Source: Akkermansiaceae bacterium
GTDB lineage: Bacteria; Verrucomicrobiota; Verrucomicrobiia; Verrucomicrobiales; Akkermansiaceae
Assembly (NCBI GenBank): GCA_028822935.1
Contig: JAPKCM010000012.1
Span: forward strand, 1-64,000
Length of the DNA stretch: 64,000 nucleotides
Reading direction: 5' to 3'
Position 1 is the first letter of the stretch, and each line of letters begins with the position of its first letter. Of this stretch, positions 35,213 to 36,679 are shown piece after piece. Position numbers and translations under genes: made by a program. The notes under the pieces were generated by a model. The model saw only the letters and a list, made by a program, of their open reading frames with translations, was not told where the DNA came from and did no database searches.

Positions 35213-35617
35213 ATGCCTCGCCAACTTTCAGCCTCCATCTTCCTTCTGGGAATGGTGCTGCTTGTGCTCCTGAAGCAACCACTACTGGCTTACTGTCCCT
35301 GTTCGGAGAACTTTTTCGTCGAGGAATGTGGCTGCGCTGAAGTCGTGCAAGATGTCTGCCCCTGTCAACAGACAGAAAAGGCCCCCTGCGATGACTGCGG
35401 AAAAGTCATCTTGCTCGATCTCGATGAGCTTTTCTGGTCCTCCATCGAGGTTCCCAATGGCTCGGAGGTAAAAGTGAGCGCGACCGCTCAGGGCAAAACT
35501 CCGGGAAAGGCTCAGGCCATTTCCTCTCGAACCTTTTCTTACGTTCTGCCCGAGACCCGGCCACCGTCCCCCGGCGGCCTGCCGCTCTATCTTTCTCTCG
35601 GTGTGCTCAGACTGTGA
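35213..35617 (+). CDS. Exported cysteine-rich protein, likely partner of the 35786 gene
   Basis: 134 aa from ATG 35213 (the frame open from 35156 lacks a sensible start). Residues 7-26 are a signal peptide or anchor (ASIFLLGMVLLVLLKQPLLA). Directly after it eight cysteines fall into four pairs within 35 residues: CPC (28, 30), CGC (39, 41), CPC (49, 51) and CDDC (59, 62). The rest is beta-like (LDLDELFWSSIEVPNGSEVKV) with a Pro-rich tail. Such pairs suggest binding of copper, zinc or another soft metal, or disulfide chemistry. No family recognised. A terminator separates it from the downstream barrel gene, which carries TGA codons where cysteines are expected. Confidence 0.65.
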   Translation: MPRQLSASIFLLGMVLLVLLKQPLLAYCPCSENFFVEECGCAEVVQDVCPCQQTEKAPCDDCGKVILLDLDELFWSSIEVPNGSEVKVSATAQGKTPGKAQAISSRTFSYVLPETRPPSPGGLPLYLSLGVLRL

Positions 35618-35693: not shown

Positions 35694-35721
35694 GTGAAGT
35701 CTCTCATGACTTCACTTTTTC
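35694..35721 (+). terminator. Intrinsic terminator
   Basis: GTGAAGTC pairs perfectly with GACTTCAC over a 6-base loop, followed by T5. It lies 77 bases after the Cys-rich gene and 65 bases before the barrel gene, so it either ends the first transcript or lets only part of it read through. Confidence 0.85.
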
Positions 35722-35785: not shown

Positions 35786-36679
35786 ATGAAAAAAATCACT
35801 TCTATCTTCTTCGCTCTCCCTCTCGCCGCTTTCGGATGAGACGGTTGAAAACTCACCACCCCGCCAGTTGGCGGATCAGACCAACTCGAATCCACCGGAC
35901 TCAGCCTCTCTCTCGACTACACGTATCGAAAAAGCGACGAAATCTACCAAGGCTCCAACGAAATCGCGAACCCGAACCAGGTCGCTACGATCTTCGAGCG
36001 CATTAATTTCAGTGCGGCCTATCGAATCAGCGATCAAGTGATCTTGCGCGCGTCCCTGCCTTACACCCACGCCACGCGCGAGGAGCTGGGGCTTGCCGAC
36101 AAGACGATCGAAGGCCTCGCTGACATCACCCTTTCCGCCCTCTGGTATCCCTGGATCGGCGAGACAAGTGCGTTGCGGAGTCTCGGATTCTCCACCGGGC
36201 TCATTCTCCCCACGGGTAACTCCAGTAACACTCCGAATGTCGGCGTCGCGATCCCATCCGTTTTCCAACTCGGAACAGGCTCTTACCAAGGGACACTGGG
36301 AGTTCGCTATTCGAGGTTGATCGATGATTGGAGCCTCGCAACCTCGGCCGATATCATCGCCCCACTCGATGACTCCTCCGCAGGCTTCCGCCCCGCCACG
36401 ACCTACTTCTGGTCCGGCAGCGCGGCCCACCCGCTCAGCGAATCATTTACTGGCAAAATGACCCTCTCTCTCAGTCACGGAACTCGGGATGAATTCCAAG
36501 GTGTCGCTTATGCCAATACCGGCTCGACGACCTTCGCCATCTCGCCCTCCTTGATCTGGGATATCGGGGAGAGCTACTCGGCCTCCGCCTCGGTCTCCAT
36601 CCCTCTTCACCGGGATGTCAATGCCACCGCGATCGCCGCCGGTCCCTTTTTCCGGATCGGGGTGAGTCGGAGCTTCTAG
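35786..36679 (+). CDS. Candidate selenoprotein: outer-membrane beta-barrel with two in-frame TGA (UDGU)
   Basis: 297 codons from ATG 35786 to TAG 36677-36679. Signal peptide MKKITSIFFALPLAAFG, then TGA (35837-35839, codon 18), Asp-Gly, TGA (35846-35848, codon 21), and an unbroken frame of alternating strands ending in GPFFRIGVSRSF with a terminal Phe, as in outer-membrane barrels. Internal strands (LSLSLDYTYRKSD, INFSAAYRISDQVILRASLP, GFSTGLILPTGNSS) resemble the phenol-pathway/transporter porin group. Members of that group, as I recall, often have CxxC-type cysteines right after the signal peptide, so TGA here may encode selenocysteine. Ending the gene at the TGA, or starting at GTG 36038 inside a strand, makes little sense. 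A pseudogene with two nonsense changes is the alternative. Confidence 0.6.
35861..35874 (+). promoter_or_regulatory. Candidate bacterial SECIS hairpin
   Basis: CCGCC-AGTT-GGCGG, a perfect 5-bp stem with a G-T in the apical loop. The loop G (35867) is 19 bases after the second TGA and 28 after the first; bacterial SECIS loops normally sit about 16-37 bases downstream. GTTG (35844-35847) and CAAC (35882-35885) could close a lower stem. It is also part of the coding sequence, so it may be coincidence. Confidence 0.4.

Follow-up and report, generated by a model that had tools for sequence, protein, structure and literature searches.

The window, by which is meant the whole 64,000-nucleotide stretch of DNA that was analyzed and which comes from a marine bacterium, contains a gene of the PF13557/COG4313 channel type that is interrupted twice by TGA close to its 5' end (Table 1). 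Re-reading of the frame bore out a sequence-only reading of this DNA, in which the gene was proposed to have a start codon and a good signal peptide, to carry TGA at codons 18 and 21 and to remain open, without frameshift, for 276 codons thereafter. The frame runs from ATG at 35786 through 276 sense codons after the second TGA to TAG at 36677–36679, with no in-frame stops or frameshifts in the gene besides the TGA pair. The residues before the first TGA were mostly AFG, AYG or SFG among orthologues, and signal peptidase I (AxG/AxA type) probably cuts after AFG in the window protein, an inferred cleavage that would leave selenocysteine (Sec) as residue 1 of the mature protein. A small gene of the DPBB/RlpA-like lytic transglycosylase type (PF03330; 36889–37335, + strand) was noted downstream.

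Table 1. Positions in the window of the putative double-Sec channel gene and associated features.
Feature	Position	Strand	Remarks
Small Cys-rich protein with signal peptide, likely functional partner	35213..35617	+	Recurs upstream of barrel gene
Terminator-like hairpin between Cys-rich gene and barrel gene	35694..35715	+	8-bp stem and T run
Putative double-Sec outer-membrane channel gene	35786..36679	+	297 residues, TAG stop, PF13557/COG4313 type
Predicted signal peptide MKKITSIFFALPLAAFG	35786..35836	+	17 residues; cut after AFG inferred
TGA codon 18, predicted Sec1 of mature protein	35837..35839	+	TGA in 21/21 full-length members; Cys in distant homologues
TGA codon 21, predicted Sec4 of mature protein	35846..35848	+	TGA in 21/21 full-length members; Cys in distant homologues
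SECIS-like hairpin, stem CCGCC/GGCGG, loop AGUU (35866–35869)	35861..35874	+	Covariation; invariant GTT codon

In a search of 58 related genomes, 17 more full-length copies were detected; they came from 16 genomes of the same genus, not counting that of the window, and each had exactly two internal TGAs. Profile searches at the class and family levels brought in copies from three more genera (genomes G399, G559 and G578), again with two TGAs each. A contig scan performed with the single protein returned no relatives while a scan performed with the alignment did. Altogether, 21 full-length members were identified in 20 genomes of 4 genera, the named records among them being metagenome-assembled genomes (MAGs) of Akkermansiaceae/Verrucomicrobiales, and TGA was present at 42 of 42 codons, with no sense codon at either position. 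The motif was U-D-G-U in most members and U-D-A-U, U-A-G-U or U-G-G-U in the rest, followed by K-L and then P-P-V-G, for which the sole exception was P-S-V-G in L015. Pairwise dN/dS values after the second TGA were approximately 0.1–0.2, and values below 1 were obtained on both sides of the TGAs, i.e., in the signal peptide as well as downstream, wherever both rates could be estimated. One genome (G019) contained two double-Sec channel copies (L013 and L023) on two contigs; this genome has 6% contamination and the second copy may be foreign.

The hairpin that follows the second TGA folds alone as CCGCC/AGUU/GGCGG, and its loop starts 17 nt past the TGA of codon 21 and 26 nt past that of codon 18. 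The distances of 19 and 28 bases given in the sequence-only reading, which placed this hairpin within the range of a bacterial SECIS, fit the midpoint of the loop. With only 5 bp, the hairpin is short, and its local folding energy is by itself only mildly unusual (z = -1.93); the strong evidence for it is comparative rather than energetic. In an alignment of 19 distinct sequences, pairing was found in 98.9% of the stem cells, 14 sequences had G-C as the central stem pair and 5 had A-U, and a covariation score as high as that observed was reached in 0 of 500 shuffles, with the same outcome for 18 sequences. The switch from G-C to A-U involves two synonymous third positions, Pro26 (CCG/CCA) together with Gly29 (GGC/GGT), and on the protein tree at least three changes are required to explain the A-U state. 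All 18 aligned sequences had GTT for Val28, whereas each of the four Val codons occurs at the invariant Val159. The invariance of the Val28 codon and the joint switch of Pro26 and Gly29 indicate that the codons of the hairpin are constrained as RNA. The AGUU loop was also invariant, and the loop of the E. coli fdhF SECIS (A18 G19), checked against E. coli genomes, lies at an equal distance from its UGA. All of the suggested checks that could be carried out spoke for the proposal; the one for a bacterial SECIS gave a SECIS-like hairpin with synonymous covariation at the E. coli fdhF spacing, in the absence of SelB-binding data. No family for the hairpin was identified in an Rfam scan of the loci, which returned nothing beyond ordinary tRNA, tRNA-Sec and chance matches below the threshold. 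A genome-wide exact search for the same loop and spacing gave 5 matches compared with 3 in the reversed control; the four matches outside the channel gene sit in short frames, and no second gene with the same SECIS was found among them. Two near-adjacent UGAs are apparently served by this single short element.

The machinery for Sec insertion, absence of which would have counted against the proposal, was found in the same genome. SelA (485.6 bits), SelB (278 bits, above cut-off), SelD (386.5 bits) and tRNA-Sec with anticodon TCA were all detected, which answered the check for selA, selB, selC and selD. The SelD gene (L046, G000:C53:6429-7358) contains an in-frame TGA (CGGUASK) and is itself a UGA-containing selenoprotein gene; its hairpin, with a different loop, is unlike that of the channel gene. 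In the 88% complete MAG G007, which carries the channel gene and SelA, neither SelB nor a confident tRNA-Sec was detected. Since nearly all genomes of the genus have SelB, the presence or absence of this protein does not discriminate within the genus. Sequence comparison shows that the TGA pair and the hairpin have been selected together with the frame on either side, in organisms that contain Sec machinery. The recurrence of the TGA pair and the hairpin in 21/21 members is far beyond chance.

Cysteine was present at both Sec columns in seven homologues from the same class (L095–L100 and L104), which are 20–23% identical to the channel and carry ACSxCGC or CACGC straight after the signal peptide. 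No close orthologue with Cys was identified. The alignment of homologues has TGA or Cys in both columns, in agreement with the statement in the sequence-only reading that related porin-like proteins often carry Cys at these positions. These PF13557-like Cys barrels resemble the channel in the homologous barrel, in the placement of the motif right after the signal peptide and, for some, in a Cys-rich gene upstream or adjoining copper genes, and differ from it in having Cys for Sec, additional Cys (CxxCGC or CxCGC) and low identity. A Cys-rich gene was noted upstream of the barrel in L096 and L104, the latter of which also contains a cation-efflux gene, and SCO1 and CusF/SCO1 genes were noted downstream in L099 and L100. 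Paralogues of the PF13557 type with HAPIGVMGDHTHK motifs (e.g., L018 and L024) were set aside as a different subfamily, having no stops and no N-terminal CxxC. The paralogues with HAPIGVMGDHTHK-like motifs (L018, L024, L026, L027, L057, L061 and L062) have Met-rich first strands and may represent another metal-related subfamily.

The outer-membrane beta-barrel that had been read from the translation was supported by a Pfam match to PF13557 (40.5 bits, cut-off 22) and by a predicted structure; the score against Pfam MtrB_PioB was only 12.6 bits, below the cut-off of 23. The AlphaFold2 model was a beta-barrel of the 4rl8/FapF type, a 12-strand fold, with a mean pLDDT of 74.9 and without an established strand count of its own, and the best solved folds were FapF (5o67) and the COG4313 channel Pput2725 (4rl8), with TM of approximately 0.7. 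Approximately 21 mature residues, starting with Sec-x-x-Sec, precede the first predicted strand, and this N-terminal segment is of low confidence in the model (pLDDT below 50 for residues 1–36). A segment before the first strand is shared, along with the predicted fold and the PF13557 match, with the known COG4313/PF13557 channels (Pput2725, 4rl8; FapF, 5o65/5o67), which differ from the present protein in lacking two Sec at the mature N-terminus and a SECIS, are only 12–15% identical to it and are linked to hydrophobic-molecule uptake or amyloid export rather than to metal genes. In 4rl8, the first 14 or so residues occupy the barrel lumen, which they enter from the periplasmic side (PMC4493636). 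Since the N-terminus plugs the lumen of this solved COG4313 channel, Sec-x-x-Sec is, by analogy, plausibly a metal-binding or redox plug.

A homologue of the Cys-rich gene in the window, or a Cys-rich analogue, was found 96–213 nt upstream of the barrel gene in 10 loci, one of them that of the window, out of the 12 whose upstream sequence was long enough, and a Cys-rich gene also precedes the channel in the G559 and G578 loci. Besides the window, the loci noted for such a gene upstream of the channel are L079, L081–L085, L091–L093, L119 and L120, from several genera, and in some forms MCCC occurs close to where the signal peptide ends. The Cys-rich protein of the window had no Pfam or NCBIfam match. 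In the two exceptions, L089 and L090, CusB and CusA lie directly upstream instead, the start of the channel gene being approximately 10 nt from CusA; the genes in L089 (1–9641), all on one strand, are in the order CusB, CusA, channel, YHS/TRASH protein and CopA-type P-type ATPase. No metal transporter adjoins the channel gene in the window. Co-transcription of the Cys-rich gene and the channel gene in the window is uncertain because a terminator-like hairpin separates them; no comparable hairpin was present in nine other intergenic stretches examined. Gene context points to soft metals. Neither the metal-efflux and Cys-rich neighbors nor a hypothesis on function had been part of the sequence-only reading.

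On the evidence above, and in the absence of any protein or selenium measurement, we consider it very probable that the gene encodes a genuine double-Sec outer-membrane channel. Concerning its function, we lean towards a metal-related role, without great assurance. The main rival is a redox role, in which the N-terminal Sec-x-x-Sec would form a diselenide and act as an oxidoreductase or as a redox switch of the channel rather than as a metal binder, with electrons passing between it and the upstream Cys-rich protein or other periplasmic thiols. Redox-type motifs (UxxC, CxxU) are noted for many uncharacterized selenoproteins in a 2026 review (PMC13188914), the Cys-rich neighbor could serve as the partner, and a glutaredoxin-like ORF, identified by eye, lies beside the channel in L090. 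On the other hand, there is no thioredoxin-like fold, the motif is located in a flexible tail at the N-terminus of a barrel, and the neighboring genes that family searches could assign are concerned with metal efflux and copper. A redox role is on balance unlikely, while remaining a possibility to be reckoned with.

Three other explanations were rejected. The position of Sec, or of Cys in the homologues, directly after the signal peptide would be that expected if Sec1 replaced the Cys of a lipobox, giving a lipid-anchored barrel modified at Sec. However, the residues from -3 to -1 (AFG and AYG in the Sec proteins; AxA, AFG or AFA, including ASA and AVA, in the Cys homologues) are a better fit to signal peptidase I, and a transmembrane barrel requires no lipid anchor. 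Phe or Tyr at -2 is unusual in a lipobox. This lipoprotein reading was judged highly improbable. Even less credit was given to the idea that UGA has been reassigned throughout the genome, or is generally read through by insertion of a common amino acid rather than Sec, on which view the frame would simply be open with TGA specifying any residue. Such a reading is contradicted by the use of TGA as a terminator for the Cys-rich gene of the window, as had been inferred from neighboring genes in the sequence-only reading, and for two orthologues of the channel gene (L003 and L017; TAA or TAG in the others), as well as by selection on the hairpin, the presence of Sec machinery and the occurrence of Cys at both columns in distant homologues. 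Since L003 and L017 end at TGA, recoding of UGA is local and its meaning as a stop is kept in the channel gene itself. Finally, that both TGAs are true stops, leaving a pseudogene or translation from a downstream start only, deserves practically no credence, for while there are two in-frame TGAs and the longest conventional ORF begins only at GTG 36038, translation from a late start would omit the signal peptide, which is required for an outer-membrane protein, purifying selection is evident on the signal peptide and downstream of the TGAs, and both TGAs are retained in every full-length member.

In the preferred reading of a double-Sec channel with a metal-related role, SelB and Sec-tRNA(UCA) would read both UGAs by means of the single hairpin, as inferred from established biology in the absence of data on SelB binding. 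The precursor would then be exported and cut after AxG so that the mature protein starts Sec-Asp-Gly-Sec-Lys, and this protein is inferred to fold into a COG4313-like barrel with the N-terminal segment of about 21 residues located in the lumen or bordering it on the periplasmic side. Of these steps, dual UGA recoding at one SECIS, export and the barrel fold have support from the sequence. Less certain are the suggestions that the two selenolates, perhaps aided by the free amine of the N-terminus, act as ligands of a soft metal, with Cu(I)/Ag(I) the most likely, that the plug thereby captures the metal at the outer membrane, gates it or lets it pass, and that the channel works with the small Cys-rich protein of the upstream gene and, in some genomes, with CusBA/CopA efflux. 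The broader notion of a channel class with a lumenal Sec-x-x-Sec chelate plug that begins at mature residue 1 and acts, with a Cys-rich periplasmic partner, as a metal-capturing or redox gate is put forward tentatively and could well prove wrong.

An inventory of 119 prokaryotic selenoprotein families from May 2026 includes two outer-membrane barrels, of the MtrB/PioB and TonB receptor types, and several metal-handling selenoproteins, and does not include a PF13557/COG4313 channel with U-x-x-U (PMC13188914). The MtrB/PioB-family selenoprotein (NF041027) is, like the channel, an outer-membrane beta-barrel with Sec (PMC13188914) but has one Sec, with no U-x-x-U listed, and the NCBIfam model for this family did not match the channel protein. 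The TonB-dependent receptor of the FCYXU motif type (NF049945) is likewise an outer-membrane transport selenoprotein but belongs to a different family, has one Sec in CxxU and gave no NCBIfam match to the channel. Sec in soft-metal handling is also a feature of the E1-E2 cation ATPase with UxxC, the SO_0444 Cu/Zn efflux transporter with UxC and the metal-binding protein NF041115, which shares U-x-x-U with the channel; these proteins are unrelated to it, however, none is listed as an outer-membrane channel, and NF041115 gave no match. No selenoprotein model in NCBIfam release 20.0 matched the channel, and no selenoprotein paper on the channel family was found in a literature search, the poorly described GOS_A of the 2008 GOS study not being comparable by sequence. 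Because the channel is absent from the inventory and matches no NCBIfam selenoprotein model, it represents, by these sources, a new selenoprotein family that conforms to a known principle, the replacement of Cys by Sec. This is in keeping with the earlier statement that no described selenoprotein family of such a kind is known.

Standard annotation would truncate such genes at codon 17 or begin them late, and the channel family is for this reason probably misannotated. The present findings add a strongly supported family that is among the few outer-membrane and the few two-Sec selenoproteins. If the proposed reading is true, selenium is located where the mature chain of a channel begins, a site at which distant homologues already have Cys, and Sec would be tied to soft-metal handling in marine Verrucomicrobia.
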